This document shows, piece by piece, positions 7,148-62,996 of a stretch of 64,000 nucleotides of DNA. The notes beneath the pieces were generated by a model, which made no database searches, was not told the origin of the DNA, and worked only from the letters and a program-made list of their open reading frames with translations. The stretch covers positions 1-64,000 of IMG/VR virus record IMGVR_UViG_3300028920_000029; one strand, 5' to 3'. The position numbers were made by a program, and so were the translations under genes. This DNA comes from a virus. Each line of letters opens with the position of its first letter. The first letter of the stretch is position 1.

Positions 7148-8007
7148 GTTGGGATGATGTAAGTAAGAATGATGGTTCTGCACCAGGAAAGGAACGTAAA
7201 CAGTTTCTTAAGGTGGAGACCGAAAAAAAGGTTAGGGTTTTAACTGCTCCCGAAATCTTTTACAAGCATTGGACGGGAACAACACTCGGTACAATGACCA
7301 CTGTTAAGTGTCCTGGTAGGGACAAGTGTATGGTGTGTCAGCGTAAACCAGATCAGCCTCCTCGCAAAAGAGGTATTATGGTTGTTCTTGACAGGTCTGA
7401 TGAGCAGTTAAAGTTTTATGATGCTCCGAATACAGTATTAGGGCACCTTAAAGCGTTTCATGAGGACCAATCCTGGGGTCCACTTCATGGATATGACGTA
7501 ACCATAAAAAAGAACGGTACAGGAAGACGTACAGACTACCAGGTTATGCCAAATCCACACAGCGCGTTGCCAGAAGACATTATGGCTAAGGTAAGAGCTG
7601 AGTTGGAAACGTTTGACTTGGTAGCTTTTGCAAGGCCACATACTCCAGAAGAGATTTTAGACATCATTAACGGACGTCCAAAATCTCAAAAGAATGTGGC
7701 TTCACAGTTTAACGTAAACGCAGGTTCAACATCACCGCCTGCACCAGCGCCTAGTGTTGCTCCAGTAAGTGTGGCGCCGAGCAACGTAACGCCGCCGACA
7801 GGTCCAGTACAGCCAGTGCAACCAGTACAGCCTGTACAACCAGTTACACCTGCGCCGTCAGCAGCTCCGCAGGCACCGCCTGCAGTGTCTCCGACACCCG
7901 CGCAGCCCGCGGCTCCTGCTCCGCCACCACCGAGTACGAATCCGCCGAATGCTGGCGGTGATGGTACTAAGACAACCGACGATCCATTCTTTAATAACTT
8001 TCTTTAA
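7144..8007 (+). CDS. ssb: Single-stranded DNA-binding protein (gp32/SSB-like)
   Basis: 287 residues. The N-terminal 190 residues resemble phage gp32-type ssDNA-binding proteins: a KKVRVLTAP strand, a knuckle with C56, C62 and C65, and VVLDRSD...LKFYDAP strands. A low-complexity Pro/Ala/Val linker follows (about 196-275, with VQP repeats). The protein ends in an acidic, aromatic tip DDPFFNNFL, resembling the SSB C-terminal peptide that recruits partner proteins. It would coat ssDNA at the fork. Its start overlaps the polymerase stop, consistent with a replisome operon, and a strong hairpin follows. The family call rests on motif order and tail, not on a database match. Confidence 0.8.
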   Translation: MSWDDVSKNDGSAPGKERKQFLKVETEKKVRVLTAPEIFYKHWTGTTLGTMTTVKCPGRDKCMVCQRKPDQPPRKRGIMVVLDRSDEQLKFYDAPNTVLGHLKAFHEDQSWGPLHGYDVTIKKNGTGRRTDYQVMPNPHSALPEDIMAKVRAELETFDLVAFARPHTPEEILDIINGRPKSQKNVASQFNVNAGSTSPPAPAPSVAPVSVAPSNVTPPTGPVQPVQPVQPVQPVTPAPSAAPQAPPAVSPTPAQPAAPAPPPPSTNPPNAGGDGTKTTDDPFFNNFL

Positions 8008-8016
8008 AGGATAAGT

Positions 8017-8042
8017 TTATGGGGACCTTCGGGTCCCCATAA
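8017..8042 (+). terminator. Strong UUCG hairpin after the SSB gene
   Basis: A perfect 11-bp stem, TTATGGGGACC and GGTCCCCATAA, capped by a TTCG tetraloop. It is followed by CAAAAAGG, not a T-run, so it is a poor intrinsic terminator. It may instead protect or process the mRNA 3' of the polymerase-SSB genes, or partly attenuate transcription. Confidence 0.6.
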
Positions 8043-8057
8043 CAAAAAGGAGATAAC

Positions 8058-8549
8058 ATGAATGTTTTAGGATTAGATTTATCTACTGTGTCGACTGGGT
8101 GGGCAATTGTTGACGAGAATATTAAGTTAGTCGATAAAGGTATAATAGATTTTGTTTCTAAGACTCCTCACAAGGAGAGGATGGTAATACTATCAGAACT
8201 TATTCAAGAAGTTTTAGATAAGAATGATATAGGTATGGTAGTTATAGAAGATACTTATGTAGCTAAGAACGTTGCTACTACTAAGTTGTTAAATAAGTAT
8301 AGCGGTGTGGCGATTTATACTGTGTATAAGAAGTGTCCTGATACGTGTGATATTGCGGTTTTGTCTCCTCAGACCATACGTTCGGCGCACTTTCCAAAAA
8401 GTAAGAAGCAGCAGACTAAGGAATATATGTATCACTACATAGTAAATAAATTTAGTTTACCCCCAGAAACTGTTAATGATTTAACTGATGCTATAGCTGC
8501 TGCGTGTACACCACATTTAAAGGAGATAGATAGCAAATGGCTGATGTAG
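8058..8549 (+). CDS. RuvC-like Holliday junction resolvase
   Basis: 163 residues with the RNase H-fold resolvase pattern. D7 sits in LGLDLSTVSTGWA, E64 in VVIEDTY, and D141/D144 in NDLTDAIAAA, giving the four acidic residues needed for two-metal cleavage. Length matches the RuvC family. The likely role is resolving branched replication/recombination intermediates before packaging. It starts after AAAAAGGAGATAAC, and its last codons overlap the following gene by 13 bases. Confidence 0.85.
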   Translation: MNVLGLDLSTVSTGWAIVDENIKLVDKGIIDFVSKTPHKERMVILSELIQEVLDKNDIGMVVIEDTYVAKNVATTKLLNKYSGVAIYTVYKKCPDTCDIAVLSPQTIRSAHFPKSKKQQTKEYMYHYIVNKFSLPPETVNDLTDAIAAACTPHLKEIDSKWLM

Positions 8550-11056: not shown

Positions 11057-11497
11057 ATGCTAGCCTCAGAAGAAAACGTTAAAGATATAACGCGAATTTT
11101 AGATTTTTTTACTACTTTAGATAATGGTTCTCAGCGTAGGCACACACAAATGTTGCTTCCGCTCATAGAGAACACTAGAATGTTACTTGATAAACTTAAA
11201 GTAGAGGTTGATTTTCGGATACAGCTTCAATCGTTACAGATGCGAGGTTTTGAAGTTAACAACTTAATATTTGGAGATTATCCAAGCTATGATACTATGG
11301 TAACTACTCTTACGGAAGTAGTGGCTAACGCAAAGAAGATGGAATCTATGCGCCAGGAATTTAATTCCTACAGGAATAAGATTCCAGATAAGACTCGGGT
11401 TCGTTTGGAAGAACTATTTAAATATCCAACACGGTACCAGGAGCTATCAAGGTTGTGGAGTAAGGTATTAGATAGAGTTAAACAGGAGGCCAGATGA
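11057..11497 (+). CDS. Hypothetical helical protein
   Basis: 146 residues, nearly all helical with heptad-like Leu/Ile spacing, probably a coiled-coil or helical bundle. The ATG follows CGGAGGATTTG; a TTG one codon earlier is less likely. It overlaps the start of the giant protein by four bases (ATGA), so the two are translationally coupled and may work together, for example as chaperone and client. No family recognised. Confidence 0.65.
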   Translation: MLASEENVKDITRILDFFTTLDNGSQRRHTQMLLPLIENTRMLLDKLKVEVDFRIQLQSLQMRGFEVNNLIFGDYPSYDTMVTTLTEVVANAKKMESMRQEFNSYRNKIPDKTRVRLEELFKYPTRYQELSRLWSKVLDRVKQEAR

Positions 11498-14400
11498 GTA
11501 ACAAGCGTAAGGCAGCCAGCATAATAAATAACATATTAAATAAAACTACACCTACAGTGTCCGAGACAAGAAACGTTAAGGTTACGTCGGACCTCATACC
11601 ACTAACTTCAAATAATAAACACAAATTTATAAAGATAGGTATTGATACATACGTGTCAGAAGATGACGCATCAAGAACTTGGAGGGTGGAGTATATAGAT
11701 GATGTTCCTTATCTAGTAGCGGCCGACGCAGGTATGGTTTTTAGGCGCGACTATGACGTTAAGGCGAACCCAAAGGATCACACCATAACATTCTATAACG
11801 ATACAAGAGAGATTGGCAGCTTTCAAGCTAATTCTTTTTCACATCTTTTTAATCTTGAGTCTGACTTACAGAGCAGGATTGCGGACTATAGTGTTTTACC
11901 AGAAAATATGTTCTGTGATGTGATGAAGAAGGAAGCAAAGATTCTTGAGTGCAAGCACATTGACGCTAACAAAGTTTTAGCCGCAGATAAAAAAGATAAC
12001 TTCTCTTCATTTCAAAAAACCATACTTGATAAGTTTGTAGATGGAATAGATACTATAGCGGCTAGTGTTAAGTCTGGTCCGTACTTACAACAGGTTATGG
12101 ACCAGCATACTAAATACTATGGGGCGCACTCAGAGGATTCGTCAATAGCTAAACAAAACTTAAAAAAGATTGAGGACGGGAAGTCTGCTGTTATGGTGGC
12201 TTTGGAAAGTTTAAAGAAGAATGTCCTTGCGGCCGTATCATCAAAGAGTATCAGAAAGCACATGGAACTGGTAGAAAAGTATGGTCAGTTATATTCAGCA
12301 CTAAAAGATTCTTTATCATTAGACTCTATAGGAGTTACGGAAGAAGCCTTGCAACCGTTTGTTCAGGTACCGTCCGATATAAAAACATTAACTAATCAAC
12401 TGCTGTCACCTATAAGAAAGGTATACGATGAAGAAGTTAGTAAGGAAGATCAGGTTAGGGTAGTTCAGCCCAAGGAAGATAAAAAGAAAACTAAGAAGGA
12501 TAAGGACTCTGTTTCTTCTGAGTCAGTACTCGCAAGTTTTAAAAGACCAGTTAAGTTACTAGCCTACCTAATTAAATACAAGAAGGATATAGTATCTCCG
12601 ATATTTAGTGCATACTTTGTAAAGGCGGCTAGCGGACTAACACATATAGACACACTACTTGAATACTCTGAAGAAGAACAGGGATCCGTTATGGACTCAG
12701 TTAAAGCTAGCCTTCAGTCAGCTATGGAGGGATTTCTTAACGACCCGTTTAATTTTTCTTTAGGTGAGGAATACGATATATCTGTTAATAAGCAGCAGAT
12801 ACTTTCTAAGGACCACGTTGTTGCACTGCTGCAGTCATCTTTTAGGCAAACGTATGCAGAACTATTTAACAATTCTTTATCATCCTTGGTTTTATCTAAT
12901 CCGTTATCAGATTTTAAGATAGAGTATGAAGATAAAGAAGAAGAGTTTGCGAGGGTATTACATGGTATTGAAACGGCCTCAGCCTCACCTCTATTTAATG
13001 AAGTTAAGTCTGAGATCATAGCGCAGAAACTTTATTTTACTCCTAGAATGAATACTGTAGTCCAGAAAGTAATGGCGTCCAAAGGTATACTTAGTACCGT
13101 TGCTTCTGCAGAAGATATAACAAATCTAGTTTCTAATATTATCGCAGCCATTGTGGATTTAACTAACGGAGTTACTACTAAAAAGGCTGAGATTCAAGGC
13201 GTAGAGAGCTATGTCGATGAAGAGACAGAGCGAATGATAAGTGACGTCAGTAGTTCACTATTTAAGAAGTTCGGTCTTCCAAAAGATTCTAAGTCTGCGG
13301 CTAATTACGAGCACATGGTAAAGATGTTATTTGGGTCTGTTGGGGATGTCGGATCTTATATTACGCTATTAAAGGGTCAGATGGAAAAGGCTGGAAACAC
13401 CATAGCTAAGATAGATGCCATTAGGCAAAAGAAGGGTAAGGTTAAATTTGATAAGGAGTGGTCTGAAGACCCAGAAGTTCGTGAGTTAGAAACTCAAATG
13501 ATCATGGACAGCTTTATGACTTCGTCCATTATGACAAAACTAATTAATATAGTGAGTATGTCGTATACTAATCATGTTGGTGGAGATGATATTGAGGGAC
13601 TTCCAAACTTTATTGGGTTATTGTTAGACGAAGTTGATGAGGACTCCATAACAAACAAAAGAGATATTCAGGATAAAATTTATAGGTATATGCCGTCACC
13701 CACAAGCGGATCACGAGATTTATATCTATTGTCATTATTATTTAACTCTAAAGAACTGGATACATTCTTTAGTATGTTGGAGGAAGCAAGGGAAACTGAT
13801 GAGTATAAAGATAAGGGACCATCGGACACCTTAAGAATCCCTCCAGAAAAGCGTATATTTAATAAGTTTGTTAGCGTAAATATGGGTAAGAAAAGAGAAG
13901 CCATAAAAGGTGATGTCTCTAGAATATTCACAACTCGAGGAGATACAAAAAAGAAGTTTAATAAATATTTAAGTGACAACGCTTTTGTAGACGAGAACGG
14001 TACAAGTTTTTTCCCGCAGGTTAAGCTTCCAAAAGATACTATGGAAATATTAGTAAACCTAGGTAAAAACAATACGTTATTTCAGAGTAAGGAAGGGTCG
14101 TGGAAAGCTAAAATTATCGATCCAAACACTAAAGAACTAAAGCAAACAGTAACTCTTGATGAGTATCAAGATAAATATATGCCAAAGGATCAAAAGAAGA
14201 AGTTTCGTGGTAGGTTATCTGATATAGTTTCCAAATCGTACGAGATAGTTTTAACCGCTACTAGAGAACATAATCAGGTTGATGTAGTATACAACGCCTT
14301 AAAAGATTTTGTTGGAAGTTCTGACGCCATTCAGGAAGCGGTGTCTACGGCAGCAATATTTGGTAGCAGAAGTTTATCGGCTAAAATAAACTTTGAGTTA

Positions 14401-17400
14401 GTTCAGGCCGCATCAACACTTAGTATTACTGGGTTAGGTAATGTGGTGGATCCAGTTTCTGGGGATACTCTGGAAGAGCAGCGTGGTATGGCTGGAATGT
14501 CCTTACCTATGTCCGATCCTGGAAGTTCTAAGGCACTACCTATTTTTCCAGACAAGACAGTATTTAATAAAGAGAATTATATTATGACGCTAAACTTGAT
14601 GTCAGAGGCGTCGGCTAAGAGTAAGTCAAAAGTTAACTCCATGGAAATGTTATTACAGTTGAAAGACTCCTTAAAATCATTTTTAAGCGGTGTAGAGGGT
14701 TACGCCGCAGACTTTATTTCTAAGTTTAACATACGCTTAAATAGTATACACAGAACGGTTAATCAATTTATAACCGAAGATGTTTATAAAAAAGTTCTTA
14801 CTCATAGAAAAAATCAGTTGGAGCAGAATAAAGCGGACCTAGCGATACGTGCCGCCGAGTTGGAGGAGTTTACTGAAAGATCAACAAAGCCTCCCAAGGC
14901 TTCACCGAACGAAGTTAAGGCTATAAAGAATAGTTATATACCCGATATAGATAGGTCTATAGCAGATATTAACAAACAAATATCTAATCCAGATCAAAAG
15001 ATGATTCAGCTATTTAAGAACTACTTTTTTAGTACACTAATAGATGATATGTATTCTGATGGTAAGCTTGACAAGTTAATGAAAGCTCATACTGGGGGAT
15101 ATAAGGCACCAAAGAAGGTTTTACATGAGCTTAAATATAGAAAAAGGACGGATACCCATCTCAGTAACTTAATAAAGAAGTTTGCAAAGGAATCTGCGTC
15201 AGATGATATTATAGGTATGTCACTTACCACATTGCAATCTTTAGGGTTTTTATATGACTCCATGGGACCCCTTAATAGTATAACAAAAATATTATCATCT
15301 ACACATAAGGAAGCAAGTTCTTCTGGAACTATAGTAAGAGTTGCCGAGGAAGACTTTCGGTCTAAGGTTAAGAAGGTTTTAAACAACTGTGGGAGCATAC
15401 CAGCTATTAGTGGGCATCATACAAACTTAATGATAGGAAGGGTTAAAATAATACAAAACATTTTATCGGTTAGTGGTTTGGAAGCTAAGATTAGCCAGTA
15501 CGTAGACTTAGCTGAGTTGAGGTCTGCGCCAAATGTTGGTGCCCGCGCTACTCAGTGGGTACAGGCGCAGCCTAATGCTGCAGGGCTCACAGATGCATTA
15601 AACAAGGTATCGGTAAAAGAGTACACAGATAAAAGAAGAGAGGACTACTCTACAATTCTAGAGTTAGTATCTTCGGCAATGACACGTCTTGATGCCCTTC
15701 ACGGTTCTGGTGATGTTGAGGCGTTGGGTAATAGATATATAGAGGAAGCTCAGTTAGGTGTTCAACGTACTACAGAAGAGTTAAGCGCTGTAGTTAACAA
15801 ACTTAAATCTGGTACGGTTACGCCCGAAGATATGGAAGAACTTAAACGTAAAGAAGAATTACTTCAGTCAGAGATCCTTAAATCTAATAGACGTATAGAG
15901 TTTACGAAGAACATTATTTCACAGTACAAAGAGAATCCCAATGTAGAAATAGAGAAATTACCAGAATATGGTGAGTCATACTTCAGCGTAGGATTTTCAG
16001 AAGTTAAGGTTCCTCAGACCGTATCGCCAGAAGGCAAGGAATCTACTATGAAATTAGTTTCTAGGGAAGTATCGGTATTAGAAAGGAACTACAACCAGTT
16101 AATGACACTATTAAAGGAAGTACTCGGGCTGGACTTTAATATAGTAGAAAGGTTTCTTATGTATTATAACACTATAGATGATATGGTTGTTAGATATTTT
16201 ACTGAAGTAAATAAACTTATTAAGCAGGAAAAGGTTTTGAACCTTAATCCAGCCATGCGCAAGGTTGCAGAGGAAAAGTTAAATACGTCGTTTAGGGCTC
16301 GATTTATTAGAATGATGAGATTACCTTCTATGCATGTTATATCTCCTCACTTTATGTCTAGCCTATATGAGGCTATGGAATCCTTAAATTGGTTTGGTAA
16401 CAGTAAAGAGTATTATGTGGATAAAATAAAAAACTTAACGATAGACAGGAAGGATGCTGTTGATCTTCTTTCTGCCGCGTATAGTATGCTAATAACTAAC
16501 AATCAAAAGTTGGTAAAAATCTCCAGGAAGAGGGTTGACTTTTCTAAGCTATATAGTAACGCTGGCGATATGGATGTAGATTTGGAGCAGAAACTATTAT
16601 CGCAGTTAGGTTTACGTGGAGGAGAAATACGCAACGAGAAAGATCGTGTGCGTGCTAGACATATAATTGAGAAGCATTTACAGTCATTAGAGTTAGACGA
16701 AAAGAAATACAGTAAAGATTTAGTTAATGTTAGCCCCGTAGATTTAGCTACATTTTACTCATACGTACTTAATATCCTAAACATTTCTGAGTCAGAGGGA
16801 ACTTCAGAAGAAGAAACTTTTGCGTCCCTTTTATCTGAAGCAAAGGCTAAACTTAAAGTAAGTGAGAAGGATGCTAATACCGTAGCAGTAGATACAATAC
16901 TTGGTTCTGGTCTTAAGTCTGGGGATTCTTATGAGCTTACAGAAAAACTTTTAGTTTCGTTGTATGGAGTTGAGAGAGGTACTGGTTCTAAGGTAGATAA
17001 GGACCTAGAGTCGTCTCAGGCTAAGCACGTAGAAAATATAAGTAACGCTCACGTAGCCATGAAGAACTCGTTTAATCAGGTATTGGATTCACCGACGCAG
17101 GCGCAAATAAGTCAGATGTCTATGCCATGGCTGGCTGACGTATCTGCGTTTGATAAGCCAGGTACTGAGTTGCCGACTATTGTAGATCCAGTAACTGGTA
17201 AACAAACTAGAGTACAGGTGCCATCAGAAACTTTAAACCCAGTTTCTTTGGCGGATGTTGAGAGTGTTATATCTGATGCAAGGTCGTTGTTACCTGAAAT
17301 AATGGCTATGAGCGGCAGACCCGTTAGGTTGGCGGTAGGTAACTTAGATGAAGGAAACTATGGAGAGTTTGAGGCAGCGGTTATCTCGTTTTTATCTACA

Positions 17401-18117
17401 GACGTTATCACTTATCTGGTAAACATAACTAAAAGTAAAGAGGAGAAAGAGTCAGAAGCTGGCTCGTATATATCTAAGTTTAGTGATAAGAGGGTGTTCT
17501 CCATAACACAAATAGTTAAAGATCTATTATTTTTTATATCGTACATATATGACCAACAGCAGGGAAAGGTAGCTCCTCAAAAGACCATAGCGGACATAGC
17601 AGCTAAAATAGACAAGAAGGTTATTTCTACGGCTAAGGAGAAATCTCCGTACTCTGTGGATCCAAACGATTTACGTCTTATAGTAAACTCGCTTTTAACG
17701 CTGGCGTATAATGGTTTTATATCGCTTAGAAATCATAAGTTAATGGGGTCATTTGTAGATGTTATGTTTGCGCCAGTTACGGCTAAGATGGCTCATAGTA
17801 ATGGATCAGTAAAACTTGGTAAGATTATTGGAAATATGGTACCCACATCTGATATAATATTATCAAAGCTTGGTTCAAGCGAGGATGCAATAATAGAGCA
17901 GAATGTGGTAAAGATAACCAATACAGAGAATGTGTATGAAGGTATTGATTATGGTACCATGGGAGTTATTAACGATACACTAGAAGCTATAAGCGGTCCG
18001 ATGGTTGATACCATGGAAGAGTATACTAACGAGGTGCTTCGTCCAGATGATATGGATAAGCTTCTTGGAGGTATAATTCAGTCGCTAAAGAATATAAATA
18101 ATTTACTTGGAGGTTAA
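11494..18117 (+). CDS. Giant 2207-residue protein of unknown function
   Basis: The largest gene in the window. The N-terminus is basic (MSNKRKAASI), followed by a beta-rich 150 residues (TYVSEDDASRTWRVEYIDD...). Most of the remainder is charged alpha helix, with no transmembrane segment, Walker motif, RNA polymerase motif or obvious repeat. A hydrophobic start of the type seen in tape-measure proteins is lacking. Large helical phage proteins are often virion internal/ejection or tail components, but position between replication and fibre genes does not decide this. It is coupled to the preceding gene (ATGA) and followed five bases later by the next. Confidence 0.8.
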   Translation: MSNKRKAASIINNILNKTTPTVSETRNVKVTSDLIPLTSNNKHKFIKIGIDTYVSEDDASRTWRVEYIDDVPYLVAADAGMVFRRDYDVKANPKDHTITFYNDTREIGSFQANSFSHLFNLESDLQSRIADYSVLPENMFCDVMKKEAKILECKHIDANKVLAADKKDNFSSFQKTILDKFVDGIDTIAASVKSGPYLQQVMDQHTKYYGAHSEDSSIAKQNLKKIEDGKSAVMVALESLKKNVLAAVSSKSIRKHMELVEKYGQLYSALKDSLSLDSIGVTEEALQPFVQVPSDIKTLTNQLLSPIRKVYDEEVSKEDQVRVVQPKEDKKKTKKDKDSVSSESVLASFKRPVKLLAYLIKYKKDIVSPIFSAYFVKAASGLTHIDTLLEYSEEEQGSVMDSVKASLQSAMEGFLNDPFNFSLGEEYDISVNKQQILSKDHVVALLQSSFRQTYAELFNNSLSSLVLSNPLSDFKIEYEDKEEEFARVLHGIETASASPLFNEVKSEIIAQKLYFTPRMNTVVQKVMASKGILSTVASAEDITNLVSNIIAAIVDLTNGVTTKKAEIQGVESYVDEETERMISDVSSSLFKKFGLPKDSKSAANYEHMVKMLFGSVGDVGSYITLLKGQMEKAGNTIAKIDAIRQKKGKVKFDKEWSEDPEVRELETQMIMDSFMTSSIMTKLINIVSMSYTNHVGGDDIEGLPNFIGLLLDEVDEDSITNKRDIQDKIYRYMPSPTSGSRDLYLLSLLFNSKELDTFFSMLEEARETDEYKDKGPSDTLRIPPEKRIFNKFVSVNMGKKREAIKGDVSRIFTTRGDTKKKFNKYLSDNAFVDENGTSFFPQVKLPKDTMEILVNLGKNNTLFQSKEGSWKAKIIDPNTKELKQTVTLDEYQDKYMPKDQKKKFRGRLSDIVSKSYEIVLTATREHNQVDVVYNALKDFVGSSDAIQEAVSTAAIFGSRSLSAKINFELVQAASTLSITGLGNVVDPVSGDTLEEQRGMAGMSLPMSDPGSSKALPIFPDKTVFNKENYIMTLNLMSEASAKSKSKVNSMEMLLQLKDSLKSFLSGVEGYAADFISKFNIRLNSIHRTVNQFITEDVYKKVLTHRKNQLEQNKADLAIRAAELEEFTERSTKPPKASPNEVKAIKNSYIPDIDRSIADINKQISNPDQKMIQLFKNYFFSTLIDDMYSDGKLDKLMKAHTGGYKAPKKVLHELKYRKRTDTHLSNLIKKFAKESASDDIIGMSLTTLQSLGFLYDSMGPLNSITKILSSTHKEASSSGTIVRVAEEDFRSKVKKVLNNCGSIPAISGHHTNLMIGRVKIIQNILSVSGLEAKISQYVDLAELRSAPNVGARATQWVQAQPNAAGLTDALNKVSVKEYTDKRREDYSTILELVSSAMTRLDALHGSGDVEALGNRYIEEAQLGVQRTTEELSAVVNKLKSGTVTPEDMEELKRKEELLQSEILKSNRRIEFTKNIISQYKENPNVEIEKLPEYGESYFSVGFSEVKVPQTVSPEGKESTMKLVSREVSVLERNYNQLMTLLKEVLGLDFNIVERFLMYYNTIDDMVVRYFTEVNKLIKQEKVLNLNPAMRKVAEEKLNTSFRARFIRMMRLPSMHVISPHFMSSLYEAMESLNWFGNSKEYYVDKIKNLTIDRKDAVDLLSAAYSMLITNNQKLVKISRKRVDFSKLYSNAGDMDVDLEQKLLSQLGLRGGEIRNEKDRVRARHIIEKHLQSLELDEKKYSKDLVNVSPVDLATFYSYVLNILNISESEGTSEEETFASLLSEAKAKLKVSEKDANTVAVDTILGSGLKSGDSYELTEKLLVSLYGVERGTGSKVDKDLESSQAKHVENISNAHVAMKNSFNQVLDSPTQAQISQMSMPWLADVSAFDKPGTELPTIVDPVTGKQTRVQVPSETLNPVSLADVESVISDARSLLPEIMAMSGRPVRLAVGNLDEGNYGEFEAAVISFLSTDVITYLVNITKSKEEKESEAGSYISKFSDKRVFSITQIVKDLLFFISYIYDQQQGKVAPQKTIADIAAKIDKKVISTAKEKSPYSVDPNDLRLIVNSLLTLAYNGFISLRNHKLMGSFVDVMFAPVTAKMAHSNGSVKLGKIIGNMVPTSDIILSKLGSSEDAIIEQNVVKITNTENVYEGIDYGTMGVINDTLEAISGPMVDTMEEYTNEVLRPDDMDKLLGGIIQSLKNINNLLGG

Positions 18118-20186: not shown

Positions 20187-20366
20187 ATGAAAAGTTACGT
20201 TAACCTTAAAAAGATAGCTAAGCTTAGTGATGAAGCTCAGCAGTGGATAAGTGATAAGATAGCATTTCTAATTAAAGAAGAAGGACTGACGCAGGAACAG
20301 GCGCAAGGAAAAGCTTACGGAATGGCCAGACAGAAGTTTCCGTCGGTTCCAGAAAAAGGAGAGTAG
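20187..20366 (+). CDS. Small protein with MKSYVNLKKIA N-terminal tag
   Basis: 59 residues beginning MKSYVNLKKIAKLSDEAQ. The start is the ATG after GAGGGTTTAATC; the reading frame extends further upstream but has no support. The rest (ISDKIAFLIKEEGLTQEQAQGKAYGMARQKFP) resembles small phage and archaeal proteins with a Gln-rich helix pair. The first eleven residues are almost identical to those of the genes at 20368, 55748 and 62688 and to four internal segments of the protein at 56168. I infer a targeting or processing leader, so this may be a minor internal virion protein. Confidence 0.7.
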   Translation: MKSYVNLKKIAKLSDEAQQWISDKIAFLIKEEGLTQEQAQGKAYGMARQKFPSVPEKGE

Positions 20367-20367
20367 G

Positions 20368-20655
20368 ATGAAGAGCTATGTGAACATGAAGAAAGTTTCA
20401 GGAGTTGTACCAGGAGTACCTGATGGAACTGGGCCTTATGGAAGAGGAATGGGTCCTGGTGGTGGAAGGGCAGACGGTTCTGGATTACAGAATGGTCCTA
20501 AAACTAATGTAAATAAAAAGAAAGTACCTGGTGTTCCTGACGGAACAGGCCCAGGAAAGGATAGTCCAGCATGTCCGTACAATACTGACAGCGCCGATTA
20601 TGCCAAAGGATATGAGGATGGGCTTGCTGCTGGTAAGTCCAAGAAGGAGGACTAA
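20368..20655 (+). CDS. Tagged Gly-rich protein with duplicated VPGVPDGTGP motif
   Basis: 95 residues. It opens with the tag MKSYVNMKKVSG, then VPGVPDGTGP (14-23), a Gly-rich stretch (PYGRGMGPGGGRADG), then a second tag-like NVNKKK (47-52) directly followed by VPGVPDGTGP again (53-62). It ends with SADYAKGYEDGLAAGK. The protein is thus an internal duplication of tag plus GTGP unit. The Gly-rich part resembles the DUF5320 type. The ribosome binding site GGAGAGTAGG is adjacent. It is probably co-translated with its neighbours. Confidence 0.7.
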   Translation: MKSYVNMKKVSGVVPGVPDGTGPYGRGMGPGGGRADGSGLQNGPKTNVNKKKVPGVPDGTGPGKDSPACPYNTDSADYAKGYEDGLAAGKSKKED

Positions 20656-51767: not shown

Positions 51768-52796
51768 ATGGAAATAATTAACAAGAAAAACTCACTCGAC
51801 AAAAAGGCTAGCGTTAGCTTCGGCGACGACGGCCACATTAACGCCTCCGACCGAACAGACGCGATTAAAAGGGTTGCCAAGTACTTAAAAGCTGGCGACG
51901 AAGGTTCATATGATGAGAAGGTGTCTAACCTCTTTACCGCAGAAGAGCAGACACAGTTAACGAACAGATTTGCTTCACAGAATACAAGGTACGTAATTGG
52001 TCAGGCAATGGCTTCACCTCTTAAAACATTCTTAGAATATAAGGGTGTTATGAGAAGAGCGCTTAGGGTCGATCCTCTCGCCCCTGGTGCGCTGCCTGTG
52101 TACGACAGGGATACTGAGGAAATCTCAGCAGACGTCCTTGCAGCACAGTCTTCAGTAGATCAGACAAGGGTAATCGGCGACAGGATATACGTTCCAGTAT
52201 TTGAAATCGCTGCATATCCTACTGTTAAACTGAGGGAAATCAAGATCAGAAGGTTCAACATGATTGACCGTATCCAGGTTAGGACAAGGCAGTTCATGCA
52301 GGAATCAGAAGATGCGACAATCATCAACCTTATTGATACAGCTTCAACAAGAGACAACACCGAGTTGACTGTTGACACATCTGACTCAGGAAACGGTCTC
52401 GGCTACATCAAGAGGCTCGACCTTGTTAAGTTGGCTCGACAGATCACAAGGCACGACCTGTTCGCAGTTTCTTACTTCATGTCAATATACCGCTACAGCG
52501 ATATAGAAATGTGGGGAAGAGACGAGCTCGATATTCTGACACAGAAACAGATTATCGACACAGGCTTGCTGGCAACACTGCACGGTAAGAATATCTACGT
52601 AACCAAGAAAATTGAGTACGATACGATATACTGTACCTCAGACCCTGACTACGTTGGAATTTTCCCAGTGTACCAGGACATCGAGGTAATCCCTGCTGAC
52701 ATACCTTACCAGACATCGTTTGGCTGGGTATTCACAGAGCTTATAGGTGCCGCGATTTTCAATGGAAAAGGTGTTGCAAAGACAACTATTTCCTAA
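51768..52796 (+). CDS. Major capsid protein (HK97 fold)
   Basis: 342 residues. A charged N-terminal arm (MEIINKKNSLDKKASVSFGD) is followed by a helical segment and then the HK97-type core: YDRDTEEISADVLAAQSS (E-loop region), VPVFEIAAYPTVKLREIKIRRFN, and the spine helix IDRIQVRTRQFMQESEDATI. The A-domain ends with PYQTSFGWVFTELIGAAIFNGKGVA. This matches T4-gp23/SPO1-type capsids more than lambda E. LDKKAS may be a processing site. Codon choice (CTC, ATC, GAC, AAC) differs from neighbours, consistent with very high expression. Confidence 0.85.
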   Translation: MEIINKKNSLDKKASVSFGDDGHINASDRTDAIKRVAKYLKAGDEGSYDEKVSNLFTAEEQTQLTNRFASQNTRYVIGQAMASPLKTFLEYKGVMRRALRVDPLAPGALPVYDRDTEEISADVLAAQSSVDQTRVIGDRIYVPVFEIAAYPTVKLREIKIRRFNMIDRIQVRTRQFMQESEDATIINLIDTASTRDNTELTVDTSDSGNGLGYIKRLDLVKLARQITRHDLFAVSYFMSIYRYSDIEMWGRDELDILTQKQIIDTGLLATLHGKNIYVTKKIEYDTIYCTSDPDYVGIFPVYQDIEVIPADIPYQTSFGWVFTELIGAAIFNGKGVAKTTIS

Positions 52797-53016: not shown

Positions 53017-53625
53017 GTGAACATAACTAGATTGGCTTTGAAAGCTAAGAAAAAGTACGTAACTGATTCCAAAGAGTATATGAGGTTGCATTGCCAAGCT
53101 TATAGGTATGAATTCAAACTTAAGGCTTTAAAGATTTATGGTTTGGTTTGTGCTGAGTGCGGGATGGATGACCCAGATACTTTATGTTTTGACCATATTG
53201 GTGGCGTAAGGAAGGAAGATAGGTCACCCTCGTTCATTTATAGGTTGGTGCGGGAACCTAAAAGAGAGGATATCCAGATACTTTGTGCGAACTGTAACTG
53301 GAAAAAGCAAAGTAACCTTTATACTAGACGTAGCCCAAGGACATACTTTACCACTAAAGTTAAGGTGTTGAGGGCTTATAGTACCACACCTGAGGCTTCT
53401 TGTGTGTTATGTGGCGAGAATGATATAGAATTACTTTGTGTTGATCATATTGACGGGGGAGGAAACAAACATAAGCGTACAGCTAATATTAAGGGACGAC
53501 TACCTACTTGGTTAAAAAAGCATAATTATCCGCCAGGATACAGAACCTTGTGTTTTAATTGTAATTTGAAATCATATATAAAACTAGCACGTGCAAGGCT
53601 TCACGAGGTCTTGCACGCTCCGTAA
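53017..53625 (+). CDS. Tandem HNH endonuclease (homing-type)
   Basis: 202 residues holding two HNH zinc-finger nucleases. The first is CAECGMDDP...LCFDHIGG...ILCANCNWKK (about 45-100). The second is CVLCGEND...LLCVDHIDGGGNKH...LCFNCNLKS (about 130-190). Two HNH copies in one protein are unusual. GTG start after TTGAAGGAAAAAACTC. Codon use and the flanking structured RNA differ from the head genes around it, indicating insertion of a free-standing homing gene after the major capsid. It might act on related phages lacking the insert. Confidence 0.8.
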   Translation: MNITRLALKAKKKYVTDSKEYMRLHCQAYRYEFKLKALKIYGLVCAECGMDDPDTLCFDHIGGVRKEDRSPSFIYRLVREPKREDIQILCANCNWKKQSNLYTRRSPRTYFTTKVKVLRAYSTTPEASCVLCGENDIELLCVDHIDGGGNKHKRTANIKGRLPTWLKKHNYPPGYRTLCFNCNLKSYIKLARARLHEVLHAP

Positions 53626-54740: not shown

Positions 54741-55751
54741 ATGGAAAAGAGAAAACGTGGAAAGAAAGTTACGGTAGTATGCGACGCTTGTGGTAAGGAG
54801 TTCACTAAGCCACCTAGCCTCGTGAAATCACGAAACTATTGTAACCGAGAATGTAAGGCGAAGGGAAACTCAATGCTCTTTGATCAGGAACCAGAGAGGC
54901 GTAAGTTGGCAGCTCAGAAAACTAAGGAACAGCTTGCAACCAAGGGCCACCCCAGTATTGGTAGGCACCATAACGCTGAAACCAAGATTAAGATAAGTGA
55001 AAAGCGCAAAGCCTTTTATCAAACTGAGGAAGGTAAAGAAGCCAGGACTAAGATATCCGAGCAGCGTAGGGCCAGCGCTGGTAACTATCATCACTCCGAT
55101 GAAACCATCGAGAAGATACGAGCCAAGAAGCTAGAGCGTGATAAGGACCCAAGCTACCAGGACAAGATTAACGACTCACTAGAAGAAAAGCGAAAGGACC
55201 CAGAGTACCATAAGAACCTTAGTGAAGGGGTTAAGCGTTTCCATGCTAGTCCAGAAGGACATGAGGTAGCCAAGCGTAAGAGTATTAAGATGAGACTAAT
55301 AAAAAAATCGTTCTATAAAACTCCTGAAGGTAAGCTGGTTAGGGGGAAATTAAGTAGTCTCATGTCTGATAAAATAGTTTCAGGAGAAATAAAGCCCAAT
55401 AGTCATGGGCACTTCGGTATACGCGCGGATCTTAACGAAGTCTTTAGGTCCAACTTAGAAGCTAACTACGCCAGGATACTTAAGTACAAAGGTACCTCAT
55501 ATGAATATGAGAATACGACATTTAAACTTAGTACTGGGCAGACTTACACACCAGACTTTTACTTACCAGATACTGACGAATATGTAGAACTAAAAGGATA
55601 TTATAAGGCAGGAGAAAGACTTAAGTACGATATGTTTAAAAAGGAGTACCCCAACGTGAAGTGGAGAATTATACTACAGACATCACAGGAGTGGGAAGAC
55701 TTAAGGAGTAAGTACAAACCCTTAATCCCACTATGGGAAGGAGTAAAATGA
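54741..55751 (+). CDS. Homing endonuclease with zinc finger, NUMOD3 repeats and PD-(D/E)XK-type nuclease
   Basis: 336 residues. An N-terminal treble-clef finger CDACGKEF...YCNRECKAKG (14-42) precedes NUMOD3-like DNA-binding repeats (GRHHNAETKIKISEKRKAF, HHSDETIEKIRAKKLER) and a long basic helical region. The C-terminal nuclease has FRSNLEANYARIL, then YTPDFYLPDTDEYVELKGYY, that is E...PDF...ExK as in PD-(D/E)XK enzymes. It resembles free-standing phage homing enzymes. It has its own promoter and ends inside the start region of the tag protein gene. Confidence 0.8.
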   Translation: MEKRKRGKKVTVVCDACGKEFTKPPSLVKSRNYCNRECKAKGNSMLFDQEPERRKLAAQKTKEQLATKGHPSIGRHHNAETKIKISEKRKAFYQTEEGKEARTKISEQRRASAGNYHHSDETIEKIRAKKLERDKDPSYQDKINDSLEEKRKDPEYHKNLSEGVKRFHASPEGHEVAKRKSIKMRLIKKSFYKTPEGKLVRGKLSSLMSDKIVSGEIKPNSHGHFGIRADLNEVFRSNLEANYARILKYKGTSYEYENTTFKLSTGQTYTPDFYLPDTDEYVELKGYYKAGERLKYDMFKKEYPNVKWRIILQTSQEWEDLRSKYKPLIPLWEGVK

Positions 55752-56146
55752 AAAGCTACGTTAACTTAAAAAAGTTAGGATCAGATGTGTTATCCCAACT
55801 TAAAGATGAAAATAAAAAGCAGCTGTATAAAGATGCAGTTAAGGCGCTGCCACTTTTATCTAAGTTTGAGCTCCACCCGCCCATTAGTCCTGGTTACTAT
55901 GATATAATACTTACATTAGACACATCAGGGTTACTTCAGAGTACGGCTACAGCCATAGTTAACAAGATTTTAGATGCTGGTCAGGAGTTATTTGATAAAC
56001 GTATAGTGGATATAGACGGTGCAGTGAGTTTTACTGGTGGTAGACTATGGTTGTTTGGTCAGGGAAAAGACAGCTTTATGTCGGTTATTAACCAGGGCGC
56101 CAAAATTGACACTATAGACGTAAGTATAGGAGAAGTAATAAAATAA
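55748..56146 (+). CDS. Tagged LPxLRKF-family protein, single module
   Basis: 132 residues starting MKSYVNLKKLGSDV; the ATG follows GGAAGGAG, and an in-frame ATG 15 bases upstream is too early for that site. After the tag come a helix (LKDENKKQLYKDAVKA), then LPLLSKFELHPPISPG, YYDIILTLDTSGLLQSTATA and IVNKILDAGQELF, matching the family pattern seen in the next protein and in the gene at 58852. It ends in a strand (IDTIDVSIGEVI). Probably a small virion or prohead protein, related to the polyprotein modules. Confidence 0.7.
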   Translation: MKSYVNLKKLGSDVLSQLKDENKKQLYKDAVKALPLLSKFELHPPISPGYYDIILTLDTSGLLQSTATAIVNKILDAGQELFDKRIVDIDGAVSFTGGRLWLFGQGKDSFMSVINQGAKIDTIDVSIGEVIK

Positions 56147-56167: not shown

Positions 56168-57991
56168 GTGGAAATAGATAACAAAGCTACAGAAGAGCAA
56201 GGTTTAGAGTTGGCGTATAGACTAATTCCTTTTCTACGGAAGTTTACTTACAAGAAATTTTCTCCTAGGTCTATGACGCTACACTGGACTTTGGACGTAT
56301 CAAAAATGTCCAGGCAGTTTATTATTAGTATAATGAAAAAACTAGCTGAGCTGCATAATATCGAAGATTTAAATTATAGACCTTCTAAAAGGATGCTAAA
56401 TTGTTTTTTGCGAGATGAGCACGGACGTGGAATAACTAATAACTTTGTTACTCCTCATTCGATAGAACACACAGTAGCTACGGAGCCTAATATTCCCACG
56501 CTTATAACCGAAGAGCTTGCGCTTAATAGCGATGATATGGTTAAGAAATCTAAAAGCCTCGTTAACTTAAAGAAAGCAGCCAAAGACGGGGTGTTAGAAG
56601 AAATATATTCGATTCTTCCAGAGTTACGAAAGTTTTCTATGTTTCGGTATTTTGGTTCGGAAGCCAACCCATATACAGATTTTAAACTTAATGTGGAGGG
56701 TTGGTCTAGGACTGCTATAATAGGTGTGATGAAGCTCATAAGGCATTCTGGGTTTGTGGGTAAGCTACGAGCGGCGGGCAGTGGTGAGTTAATTAGCTCT
56801 TGGTATAACGACGAAAGCTTAAACATAGCCCTAGCGAACCCAAATATTTATCCCTTGTCCATATCTGTAAGGATATATGACATATCTATTCGTCCCACGC
56901 AAGCAGGAAGCCTCGTTAACTTAAAGAAAGTATCTACAGCTGACGGTAAATGGGAACTTAACTATATACTTAGTGTAGTCCCAGAGCTAAGCAAGTTTAA
57001 CATAAGTGCTCCTATACAAGTATATAACGGAGACCTGGTTCAGTTTAAGTTTAGTTTGGGTGCTGGGCCGCTCAGTAACGTTACTGTAGCTACCTTGCTA
57101 CGTAATATCTATAAAAAACTTATTGAGAACGCGAGGAATAATAAGCCTATACGGAATACTTATGCGGACATGTCCATAGAACTAAGTCCTCAACTTAAAG
57201 ATACGTCGGTTTTGGAAGATACCTACCCTGCGCTTGGTGAGGTAGTAGCTCAGGCCGAAAGAGGTAACATAGCTATACTTGCGATGTATATTATGACTCC
57301 CTCTAAAGAGTACCGAGATGGCGAACCAGAAAAAAGGAACCGACCTCTGCGGGACTATACGGATGCTAAGTCCTGCGTTAACTTAAAAAGAATATCAGCA
57401 GAAGATGAAAAGATGAATAACATACTTAGATATAAGGTTATGCAGCTTAGAAATGATAAGGATATAGAAGCTTATATTCCAGTGTATTATAAGAAGATAA
57501 TAGATAAGTTTAGGAAGGGTGAGCACCTGCAGCCCCCAGAAATCATGGGGTCCATTAAGTCTATCAACGACGCGTTAAAATCGTGGAGGGATAGCAAAGA
57601 GCACTACAGAAAGATGCACGGGAGTTACGTTAACTTAAAAAAGATAGCTGAAGATAAGCTGGACAAGTTTTGTCCGTCTTGTGGTATGATGGTTGACAGG
57701 TTGTACCCAGTTATTGGTAAGGAAAAGATATGCTATGATTGTTACAAGAAGATGCTTAGGGACCGTAAGAAGAAAGCTGGAAGGTTTGAAAGTGATAAAG
57801 AGTTGGAGGATGTTAAGGAACTCTTTGCTTACTTTGAGAAGCAGCCCTATCCATGGAACGAAAGGGCCGAAGCTATAGCAAAGAAGCATGATTACTATGG
57901 TACTCCGTTATCCATAGTTAAACGGATGTTAGTAAACATACAAAAGGAACAGCAGGGAGTAGATCAATTTCCAACTAAGGAGGATAAGTAA
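56168..57991 (+). CDS. Multi-module tagged polyprotein
   Basis: 607 residues made of five modules, four of them opened by a tag. Module A (1-129, no tag) has PFLRKF at 21-26 and TLDVSKMSRQFIISIMKKLAEL. Tags start at S130 (SLVNLKKAA), S248 (SLVNLKKVS), S402 (SCVNLKRIS) and S486 (SYVNLKKIA). Modules B and C after tags 1 and 2 repeat the family fold (LPELRKF, VPELSKF, then LNVEGWSRTAIIGVMK or FSLGAGPLSNVTVATL). Module D (402-485) is a helical bundle. Module E carries a zinc ribbon (C502, C505, C522, C525) and a helical tail. GTG start after GGAGAGAAAGGTA. Processing by the nearby prohead protease is inferred. Confidence 0.75.
   Translation: MEIDNKATEEQGLELAYRLIPFLRKFTYKKFSPRSMTLHWTLDVSKMSRQFIISIMKKLAELHNIEDLNYRPSKRMLNCFLRDEHGRGITNNFVTPHSIEHTVATEPNIPTLITEELALNSDDMVKKSKSLVNLKKAAKDGVLEEIYSILPELRKFSMFRYFGSEANPYTDFKLNVEGWSRTAIIGVMKLIRHSGFVGKLRAAGSGELISSWYNDESLNIALANPNIYPLSISVRIYDISIRPTQAGSLVNLKKVSTADGKWELNYILSVVPELSKFNISAPIQVYNGDLVQFKFSLGAGPLSNVTVATLLRNIYKKLIENARNNKPIRNTYADMSIELSPQLKDTSVLEDTYPALGEVVAQAERGNIAILAMYIMTPSKEYRDGEPEKRNRPLRDYTDAKSCVNLKRISAEDEKMNNILRYKVMQLRNDKDIEAYIPVYYKKIIDKFRKGEHLQPPEIMGSIKSINDALKSWRDSKEHYRKMHGSYVNLKKIAEDKLDKFCPSCGMMVDRLYPVIGKEKICYDCYKKMLRDRKKKAGRFESDKELEDVKELFAYFEKQPYPWNERAEAIAKKHDYYGTPLSIVKRMLVNIQKEQQGVDQFPTKEDK
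56555..57649 (+). repeat. Four internal copies of the VNLKK tag coding sequence
   Basis: Copies start at 56555, 56909, 57371 and 57623, each with the core CGTTAACTTAAA. The first two share AGCCTCGTTAACTTAAAGAA exactly. The same core, with variation, begins the genes at 20187, 55748 and 62688. Spacing between copies (354, 462, 252 bases) differs, so this is module shuffling rather than a simple tandem repeat. Confidence 0.85.
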
Positions 57992-58594: not shown

Positions 58595-58862
58595 GTTTGC
58601 GCAGGAATGGTTTGATAAGATACTTGAAGCTACAGAGAGGTTGTCTAAGTCTGGGCAAAGAAAACTGTTTAAGACTGTGCTGGCTATGCTGTTAGTTTTT
58701 ATCCTGTGCATACTATTTATTGTAGTAGCTCACGATAAAGACTTTTTTCTTCAAGGAATACAAGCATTCCTGACGGCTATCTGTGTGTTGGCTGGAGTAT
58801 ATAGTGTGGCTAACTCAGTTGAGCATGCCACTGATGGAGGTAAGAAAAAGAATGGCAAGTAA
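58554..58862 (+). CDS. Holin-like two-helix membrane protein
   Basis: 102 residues. An N-terminal amphipathic region is followed by two transmembrane helices, VLAMLLVFILCILFIVVAH (about 43-61) and GIQAFLTAICVLAGVYSVAN (about 68-87), and a basic tail GGKKKNGK. Size and topology match class II holins. It is adjacent to another small membrane ORF but far from both wall hydrolases. AAAGGAGGGATACC precedes the ATG. Confidence 0.55.
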   Translation: MLQLLKFLFVGKDKFAQEWFDKILEATERLSKSGQRKLFKTVLAMLLVFILCILFIVVAHDKDFFLQGIQAFLTAICVLAGVYSVANSVEHATDGGKKKNGK

Positions 58863-59250
58863 TCCAGAACCATATACTAAAGACCAGATAGTGGAATACA
58901 TAGTATCTTATCTTCCTAGTCTACGTAAGTTTGACTTATATAGCTTTGATGAGGTTCAGCCAAATAAGATGACCACTTTAGTGTTTAGGTTAGATGTATC
59001 TAAGTTTAATATATCTACGAGGGTAAAGCTAATTTACAACTTGGCTGACGCTGCTAAGGCTGTTAACGATACAGATGGCGCGTCTATTAGTTTTGACTCG
59101 CCTCTGTTTAAAAGGCTTGATGCTAACGGAGAAGACCTTTCGACGTCCTCTCGGTTCGTATTAAGGCAAGACGGGCATAGTGTGGTAGAAGAAAAGGCTG
59201 CAGACCCAAAGTTTCACTACATCGAAATGACGGTATTTTATTATGGTTGA
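58852..59250 (+). CDS. LPxLRKF-family protein without tag
   Basis: 132 residues from the ATG after GGAGGTAAGAAAAAGA. It lacks the VNLKK tag and opens MASNPEPYTKD. QIVEYIVSYLPSLRKFDLYS, then TTLVFRLDVSKFNISTRVKL and IYNLADAAKAV follow, matching module A of the polyprotein (PFLRKF..., TLDVSKMSRQFIISIM) closely. It ends in a strand FHYIEMTVFYYG like SISVRIYDIS of module B. The absence of a tag supports a two-part design of leader plus domain. Confidence 0.65.
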   Translation: MASNPEPYTKDQIVEYIVSYLPSLRKFDLYSFDEVQPNKMTTLVFRLDVSKFNISTRVKLIYNLADAAKAVNDTDGASISFDSPLFKRLDANGEDLSTSSRFVLRQDGHSVVEEKAADPKFHYIEMTVFYYG

Positions 59251-59351: not shown

Positions 59352-60221
59352 ATGTTTATAAAGACTGCTGATTGTTCTGTTGTAGACGTCTTAGATACCA
59401 GGAAAGCTGGGTCTATCTTTGATGAGATAGTTACCAACTCCGAGATAGCTAAGGCTTCTACGCTGGACGAGAGTGATATAAGGCGTCAAGGTTATAATAG
59501 GTTTAGGGCTATAGCCGAGAAACGTTCTGATCGTTTGGCTATAGCAACCAGAGCCATCTCAGCTTATGAAACTCACTCGTTTAACAAGAACGGTGATGCC
59601 TTTGAGAGGGATCAACTTGAGAAATTTCATAAGACGTTTATACTTAAGCCGCATCTTTGGGACCACGATTTATCAATAGGTTCAGTTAGGGGTATAATAG
59701 CTGACGCAAGTTGGAATCCAAAGGAAGACTATGTTGAGACGCTTATCTTTATTGATAGGGAACAGTTTCCTAAGTATGCTTCTAACGTGGAGAAGGGGTA
59801 CATAAATAGTTTTTCTATGGGAGTAGAAGTTAAGGAGGCTGAGTGTTCTATTTGTCACAATATCGCGCGGACACCCGCGGAATTATGTATTCACGCAGAA
59901 AGATACAAAGGACTTTACGTTCAGGGTAAGAAGTGTTTTGAGTTTAACAGGGACCTGGAGTTTATTGAGCAGAGTGCTGTTGCATCTCCAGCAGACCCAG
60001 ACTCACATACTTTGTACATACTGGCGCACGCAAAGGCTGGTCAGCATAAAGAGATAGAGAATCTTAGGAAGCTTGCGTCAATACTTGATAGCTATACAGA
60101 GGAAGACAAGCGTAGGTTTAACGATGAGTACTACCTTATCACATCTTCTGTTGATAGGTTGGCTACCAGAATAGCAAAGGATCTTGGGATATCGTTTGGG
60201 GATCCGAGGCGAGGTGAGTAA
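59352..60221 (+). CDS. Prohead maturation protease
   Basis: 289 residues. The catalytic pattern PHLWDHD (100-106; H101 and H105 are candidate catalytic His), GSVRGIIADASW and NSFSMGVEV (S153 or S155 as nucleophile) matches the herpesvirus-assemblin-like U35 prohead proteases. A zinc-binding insert ECSICHN...ELCIHA (C165, C168, C179, H181) follows, as in several large phages. It would cleave scaffold, capsid arm and tagged internal proteins during maturation. AAAGGAGGTATGAT precedes the ATG, and a separate promoter lies upstream. Confidence 0.8.
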   Translation: MFIKTADCSVVDVLDTRKAGSIFDEIVTNSEIAKASTLDESDIRRQGYNRFRAIAEKRSDRLAIATRAISAYETHSFNKNGDAFERDQLEKFHKTFILKPHLWDHDLSIGSVRGIIADASWNPKEDYVETLIFIDREQFPKYASNVEKGYINSFSMGVEVKEAECSICHNIARTPAELCIHAERYKGLYVQGKKCFEFNRDLEFIEQSAVASPADPDSHTLYILAHAKAGQHKEIENLRKLASILDSYTEEDKRRFNDEYYLITSSVDRLATRIAKDLGISFGDPRRGE

Positions 60222-61917: not shown

Positions 61918-62691
61918 ATGGCATATTTAAGAAACATACCAAGCAGCGGTGACCCGTTTGAGAAAGGTAAGAATGGATTTATACCATCTAATCCTACCGA
62001 CGCTGGGGTGGAGCAGAGGTTTGATAGCTTGACAGATAGGTTCCAACCTAAGGAACAGTATACAAGAAAGATATACCAGGTAGCAACTGGAGATGAGAAC
62101 GTACTGCACGAACATATTGAAAGGCTTAGCAGGATGATAGAAGCCAGAGGCGAGCTTGTAACGCTTGTTAAACGTAAACTTGATGGTGAAAGATGTAACT
62201 GCTATGATACAGTTATGGATGTTGTTAGGCGTAAGTATTGCTTGCAGTGTTATGGTACTAGGATAAAGAATGGTTATGAGCTATTTAATAATACTAATAG
62301 AGATGATGGTAAGATATACATAGCGGCTCCGTTTGCTGAAGCTAGGATAGATTGGGAAGACCACGGACGAGTACAGACGGAGGAGCTAACTTATTGGACT
62401 TTGCCGTATACCCCGTTAGAAAACGGAAGCACTACGTATTCTTACGACTGGTTAATAAGATATAATAATGATGGTACTGAGTTAGGAAGGTATTATATAC
62501 ATAATGTTAAACCTTCTAGGAGTGTAGATAACTATGTTACGTATCAACACTTTACGGCTGCGTTAGCAACAAGACCTACTTACGATCATGAAGGAACTAT
62601 GGTAAGGCGAGGCGATTTGATATATGAAGTGGATACTAGTACGTTAGATGTAGTTGAGGGAAACTTAGAAAAAGGAGCTGACGAACGATGA
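61918..62691 (+). CDS. Hypothetical connector-region protein with Cys knuckles
   Basis: 257 residues. GERCNCYDTVMDVVRRKYCLQCYGTR (about 96-121) holds a C-x-C...C-x2-C knuckle, and beta strands follow (KIYIAAPFAEARIDWEDHG). The Cys knuckle with YG resembles phage zinc-containing baseplate or head-closure proteins. The rest is polar. Coupled to the next gene by ATGA overlap. Confidence 0.55.
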   Translation: MAYLRNIPSSGDPFEKGKNGFIPSNPTDAGVEQRFDSLTDRFQPKEQYTRKIYQVATGDENVLHEHIERLSRMIEARGELVTLVKRKLDGERCNCYDTVMDVVRRKYCLQCYGTRIKNGYELFNNTNRDDGKIYIAAPFAEARIDWEDHGRVQTEELTYWTLPYTPLENGSTTYSYDWLIRYNNDGTELGRYYIHNVKPSRSVDNYVTYQHFTAALATRPTYDHEGTMVRRGDLIYEVDTSTLDVVEGNLEKGADER

Positions 62692-62996
62692 AATCAGTAG
62701 TTAACTTATACAAGATAGCTAAGTGGGAAGCTGAGCATGAAGCTGCTCTTAAAGAAGATGCAATGAGAGAGAAGGGAGAACAAATAGAGGGAGGGCTTGC
62801 CGATAATATGACATTGGAAGACATAGCTAATAGGCATGGAGTAAACATGGGTAAGATAGTGTCACAAATAAATAAAGGTATCCGTGTTGAGTATGAGCAC
62901 ACGAATGATGCTAAACAAGCTATGGAGATAGCTAAGGATCATCTGGTTGAGGATTCAGAATACTACACAAAATTAGAAATGATAGAAAATCACTAA
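62688..62996 (+). CDS. Tagged DUF5661-like protein
   Basis: 102 residues starting MKSVVNLYKIAKWEAE, a variant of the tag. The C-terminal half has IVSQINKGIRVEYEHTNDAK, then QAMEIAKDHLVEDSEYYTKL, matching the VExEHTxDxxxAxEIAxDHLxExxxYYxKL pattern of DUF5661, common in phages. A tag in front of an unrelated small domain supports a separable leader. Coupled to the preceding gene (ATGA). Confidence 0.65.
   Translation: MKSVVNLYKIAKWEAEHEAALKEDAMREKGEQIEGGLADNMTLEDIANRHGVNMGKIVSQINKGIRVEYEHTNDAKQAMEIAKDHLVEDSEYYTKLEMIENH

Follow-up and report, generated by a model that had tools for sequence, protein, structure and literature searches.

The stretch of viral DNA analyzed here (64,000 nucleotides, hereafter the window) is part of a 173,362-base virus record and carries, on its + strand at positions 56168..57991, a 607-residue fused protein with a GTG start codon and a good Shine-Dalgarno site. 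This protein comprises five modules and four internal copies of a short peptide tag, with the pattern S[LCY]VNLK[KR]xx found at residues 130, 248, 402 and 486, exactly the four positions listed in the initial annotation of this DNA. Specifically, the copies (all on the + strand) read SLVNLKKAA (internal tag 1, residue 130, 56555..56581), SLVNLKKVS (internal tag 2, residue 248, 56909..56935), SCVNLKRIS (internal tag 3, residue 402, 57371..57397) and SYVNLKKIA (internal tag 4, residue 486, 57623..57649). The number of VNLK[KR] matches expected in 607 residues from the amino-acid composition is 0.0016, and none of 100,000 shuffles of the protein contained two of them.

With respect to the modules themselves (again all on the + strand), alignment and comparison with paralogues place three of the five in one LPxLRKF-type family. 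Module 1 (56168..56551) lies at the N-terminus and is untagged, module 2 (56582..56908) follows tag 1 and is 33% identical over 75 residues to a separate gene at 58852 (pairwise E 3e-5), and module 3 (56936..57370), of LPxLxKF type with a long extension, follows tag 2. The initial annotation had recognized only two such modules. The family also includes a tagged gene at 55748 and the untagged gene at 58852, and its modules are mutually only ~20% identical. Tag 3 leads into a predicted helical segment (module 4, 57398..57622), a low-confidence assignment from a single-sequence model with a pLDDT of 35, and tag 4 leads into a CxxC...CxxC zinc ribbon with a helical tail (module 5, 57650..57988). 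The zinc-ribbon module has an untagged, free-standing homologue in a related phage, L011, at ~14416 (E 4.1e-5, 32% identity).

A single-sequence AlphaFold model of the whole 607-residue protein was unusable (pLDDT 35). Modeling of the five module paralogues gave a pLDDT of ~80 for the module and a pTM of 0.76, with the tag residues 1-9 below a pLDDT of 50; the tag is accordingly predicted by the model to be a disordered leader preceding a folded domain. Foldseek searches with the module model returned nothing significant from the PDB or a viral library (best E 0.02 and 0.03, respectively). For the 607-residue protein as a whole, a Pfam search returned no family, the top PHROG match had an E of 0.02, and protein and DNA searches of 2.9 million viral contigs and 50,697 phage records identified no homologue.

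The tag is not confined to this protein. When the complete 173,362-base record was scanned in six frames, eight copies emerged, four in the 607-residue reading frame and four at gene starts, with no further copy above noise. All eight lie on the + strand within the first 63 kb, in the region that holds the terminase, portal, capsid protein and protease genes. The four gene-start copies belong to two small genes beginning MKSYVNLKKIA (20187..20366) and MKSYVNMKKVS (20368..20655, Gly-rich), to a single-module gene in which MKSYVNLKKLG is followed by an LPxLxKF module (55748..56146; fold pLDDT 80, residues 1-9 below 50), and to a gene in which MKSVVNLYKIA precedes a DUF5661 domain (62688..62996; Pfam PF18905, E 2.3e-13, above cut-off). 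The peptide is therefore the true N-terminus of separate genes, as had been proposed. The LPxLRKF-module paralogue at 58852..59250 (+) is untagged. Elsewhere in the window, a 2207-residue open reading frame at 11494-18117 has no PHROG match.

Among the neighboring head genes, the major capsid protein (51768..52796, +; phrog_2522, E 2.6e-54; 38% to Bacillus phage G gp27) is without a tag. Its first ~50 residues (51768-51920) form an N-terminal extension relative to phage G gp27 that ends Y[DN]E in most relatives and YEQ in one (L015), and may represent a scaffold-like propeptide with its cleavage site. Two endonuclease-like genes (53017-53625 and 54741-55751) sit between the capsid/neck-type genes and the tagged cluster, one HNH-like by eye and the other with Phage_endo_I and NUMOD3 matches. 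A prohead (head maturation) protease with the conserved H and SFSMG motif (59352..60221, +; phrog_18299, E 1.1e-13) starts 1.36 kb downstream of the fused gene, in agreement with the placement of a prohead protease about 1.4 kb downstream in the initial annotation, and is 57% identical in the relatives. Its C-terminal part contains a tag-like stretch, ENLRKLAS (60048-60077), which is conserved as ERLKKIAS in two relatives (L011 and L013); the prohead protease of phage SPN3US has a C-terminal propeptide that it removes itself. A search for the protease in genome contigs found none.

Relatives of the virus were located through the major capsid protein (58-74% identical), and the clusters complete enough to read were those of L011 (equivalent to L008 and L009) and L013, with L012 representing a fragment of the L013 type. 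Their equivalent tag, MS[FY][VI]NF[KR][KR][IL][SAG], likewise occurs both at gene starts and inside open reading frames. In L011, whose record is 150 kb long, a 4.7-kb segment next to the genes for the capsid protein and the protease contains all five exact tags. One L011 frame (12812-14386), tagged at residue 1 and again at residue 327, is a fusion with nucleotidyltransferase-like and rubrerythrin/ferritin-like Pfam matches, all sub-threshold. An L013 frame (7041-8072) contains three internal tags; its L011 orthologue keeps one of these (SSINFDKLG) and has lost another, although the corresponding module is kept. A ferritin-like module that is 83% identical over 52 residues between the two phages stands alone as a tagged gene in L013, whereas in L011 it lies within an internal segment led by a tag. 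Tags are thus retained in fusions of independent lineages, and modules are exchanged between free and fused forms. These comparisons of sequences indicate that the gene fusions differ between phages and that tags tend to travel with their modules. Since the tags stand in different fusion contexts and the modules switch between the two states, we regard the tag as a portable leader and the 607-residue protein as a set of fused gene units. The leader-plus-domain reading of the initial annotation is upheld by these relatives, in which tags persist between modules in other fusions; homologues lacking inter-module tags had been named as the observation that would speak against it. The tagged L011 gene after the protease (L011:17488-18642) consists of three tandem LWxRAxxDxxxFL modules, only the first of which is tagged, and L013 has a single such module. 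That gene and its positional counterpart in the window, the gene after the protease (60221), were considered as a common scaffold and share no detectable similarity.

In terms of how the fusions arose, two internal tags in the relatives keep an ATG and a strong Shine-Dalgarno site (AAGGAG/AAGGAGG), and the module downstream of each may therefore also be made alone. The internal tags of the window, unlike these two, have no ATG plus Shine-Dalgarno start signals, and at internal tag 1 (residue 130) neither an adjacent start codon nor a Shine-Dalgarno site was found. The presence of start signals in relatives and their disappearance in the window suggest gene fusion caught at different stages. 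Such a history raises the possibility that the leader matters only at gene starts, that loss of stop codons fused neighboring genes, and that the internal copies are passive leftovers. The surviving start signals at the two internal tags of the relatives fit this explanation, as do the loss of one internal tag between L011 and L013 and the weakening of another to INFDK/INFNK. The codons GTT AAC TTA are also shared by six of the eight window copies (~0.08 each by codon usage), which suggests recent copying, and the DNA of tags 1 and 2 is identical over AGCCTCGTTAACTTAAAGAAAG. Nonetheless, the fit to the consensus is about as good for the four internal tags of the 607-residue protein as for the tags at gene starts, and these internal tags have been kept even though the LPxLRKF modules have diverged so far from one another and the start signals are gone. 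We therefore judge it unlikely that the internal tags are simply residue of past fusions.

Alignment of 19 tags from three viruses provides a clearer view of what has been conserved. The tags align over exactly nine residues, with the Asn invariant (19/19) and the Ser nearly so (18/19), to give the consensus S-[YF]-[VI]-N-[LF]-[KR]-[KR]-[hydrophobic]-[AGS]. Conservation ends sharply on both flanks, and the modules are otherwise mostly unrelated. A search of genome and viral collections with the tag as a DNA pattern recovered only this phage group, and other matches look like chance. Six copies in the window contain the near-identical DNA word GTTAACTTA, which would fit a tag that operates not as a peptide signal but at the level of nucleic acid, for example as a recombination seam, a promoter or a ribosome-loading element. 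The relatives, however, encode the same peptide with different synonymous codons (GTAAATTTC, ATAAATTTT, ATCAATTTT and GTGAACTTT), which argues that selection acts on the peptide. On the basis of this codon variation we rejected a nucleic-acid-level element, which we consider highly improbable.

The initial annotation further suggested that the units are cut apart or anchored at each tag, for example by the nearby prohead protease. If the protein were a processed polyprotein, this protease would cut in or beside each of the tags, releasing separate proteins inside the head. The protease gene is indeed close to the fused gene and is conserved along with the cluster; a protease might recognize a sharply bounded motif of nine residues whose last residue is small; and in T4 the prohead protease removes the leaders of internal proteins (PMC9026906). 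The SPN3US enzyme cleaves after AXE, and 42 packed head proteins of that phage stay uncut (PMC10052503). In the present alignment, a [hydrophobic]-x-E sequence accompanies 13 of the 19 tags, compared with 62% of random 30-residue windows, and is thus not enriched. T4 gp21 cleaves after xxE, and HK97-type proteases of other specificities exist. In addition, no xxE site recurs at the tags and the capsid protein lacks the tag, so that the junctions and the capsid precursor have no cleavage motif in common, and the tag is also found on single-domain genes, which offer no units to separate. Cleavage by the prohead protease at the tags is consequently not borne out by the sequence, although an enzyme of different specificity could cut there, and we regard a processed polyprotein as rather doubtful; of the two options, anchoring at each tag fits the evidence better.

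Gene-start tags of other sequence were also observed among other members of the capsid family. A 485-kb uncultured phage that is a capsid-protein relative (LR745208.1) has a gene-start tag of 30 residues, LRSKLIRLAHENPxLRPxLLPLLKEA, in 11 copies, at sites that include 398486-398575, L018:14701 and L018:22328, and this tag is absent from all other phage records searched. In Bacillus phage G (JN638751.1), another capsid-protein relative, ten genes start with M[KR]RL[IM][KR]K[ASG], for example those at 28218, 73330, 207449 and 446709. Some of the phage G genes have ParB_N (E 3e-9) and SLOG (E 3e-6) matches above cut-off and PARP-like matches below it. ParB-like and ADP-ribosyltransferase domains occur in proteins described as delivered with phage DNA (PMC5512222), and the domains of the tagged phage G genes would be as expected of proteins that are packed in the head and injected. 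Lineage-specific gene-start tags may then be a means of loading used generally across this capsid family, and their presence in phage G and the 485-kb phage suggests that the principle reaches beyond the clade of the window virus.

Building from these observations, we lean toward the view that the nine-residue tag is a portable, disordered docking leader, and probably a head-interior targeting signal that loads cargo into the phage head. This preference derives from analogy, as MKSYVNL resembles the leaders of T4 internal proteins and the N-terminal signal of phage P1 DarB. According to this model, the leader would attach freshly synthesized accessory proteins to the inner shell or the scaffold, and the bound proteins would be packed into the head. 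The 607-residue protein would represent an in-frame fusion of neighboring tag-led genes that offers five cargo modules and four docking points, and the most likely mode would be a single chain that enters the head intact and is anchored there at several sites. Certain observations do not sit easily with a docking leader. The resemblance to T4 leaders extends over seven residues and could be due to chance; we found no precedent for an internally placed capsid-targeting sequence, the known one working at the N-terminus; and both module 1 and gene 58852 are untagged, as is the L011 internal position at which the module was retained and the tag lost. A more far-reaching proposal, in which a single nine-residue signal, interchangeable and placed ahead of nearly every module, would load the chain and also mark its cut sites while modules are freely added, shuffled and fused, seems to us improbable. 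To our knowledge, descriptions of short phage-head loading signals are limited to a few phages and to the protein N-terminus. If our reading is true, a lineage in which the same signal serves both at gene starts and within fused chains would reveal a modular form of head-cargo assembly. The tag would also allow packed proteins to be predicted from sequence alone among the unknown proteins of large phages, and would offer a candidate tag for multi-point loading where phage heads are used to deliver proteins.

Among known systems, the capsid-targeting sequence of T4 (the leaders of IPI, IPII and IPIII) is likewise a short N-terminal peptide common to otherwise unrelated head proteins. The T4 internal head proteins start MKTYQEF or MKTFKEF, and MKSYVNL agrees with them at K2, S/T3, Y4 and the hydrophobic residue 7. 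In T4, ten residues suffice to bring a protein into the head, with positions 4 and 7 carrying most of the targeting (PMC9026906). In the window virus, about ten N-terminal residues are similarly shared by otherwise unrelated proteins, and Y4 together with L7 or M7 is present in three of the four MKS genes, the exception at 62688 having V4 and L7. The MSFVNF form of the relatives preserves the same aromatic/hydrophobic spacing, shifted by one. The T4 leaders differ in being N-terminal and in being cut by gp21 after xxE, whereas the window motif is also internal and has no recurrent xxE prohead-protease site at the leader end (19 tags); we compare the two by analogy. The phage P1 protein DarB provides a second parallel, since an N-terminal signal loads this large internal protein into the head much as we propose for the tag (PMC9024508). 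The Dar N-termini, however, are reported to have no consensus (PMC9024508), in contrast to the single consensus and eight copies seen here.

Encapsulin cargo-loading peptides offer a parallel outside phages, in that they are short and disordered and hold cargo, ferritin-like proteins among others, within a shell of the HK97 fold. These peptides are mostly C-terminal, however, and unrelated to the tag in sequence, and phage heads are filled with DNA; the tags are N-terminal or internal, as opposed to C-terminal peptides that bind an HK97-fold shell (PMC11202242). The propeptides of SPN3US ejection proteins occur on internal head proteins of a phage that, like the window virus, is large and encodes a prohead protease, but they are mostly long and cut at AXE, and no repeated inter-module tag has been described for them.

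Finally, polyvalent proteins of phages and conjugative elements (Iyer et al. 2017, PMC5512222) are multidomain proteins that are proposed to be delivered with the DNA and are in some cases cleaved, and, like the 607-residue protein, they combine unrelated domains in one polypeptide encoded near virion genes; no peptide tag between domains appears in the passages considered. The 607-residue protein, encoded among virion genes, indeed unites at least two distinct domains in a single chain, and its lack of any known domain in Pfam and PHROG searches sets it apart from polyvalent proteins with catalogued effector or peptidase domains. The initial annotation had stated that no phage polyprotein of such a layout was described. 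As far as our searches extended, the statement holds for the tag layout but not for multidomain phage proteins as such, some of them cleaved (PMC5512222). T4-type targeting leaders and polyvalent proteins are the closest known kinds, and the new element presented by this locus is one leader used repeatedly and internally in what would be fused cargo chains.
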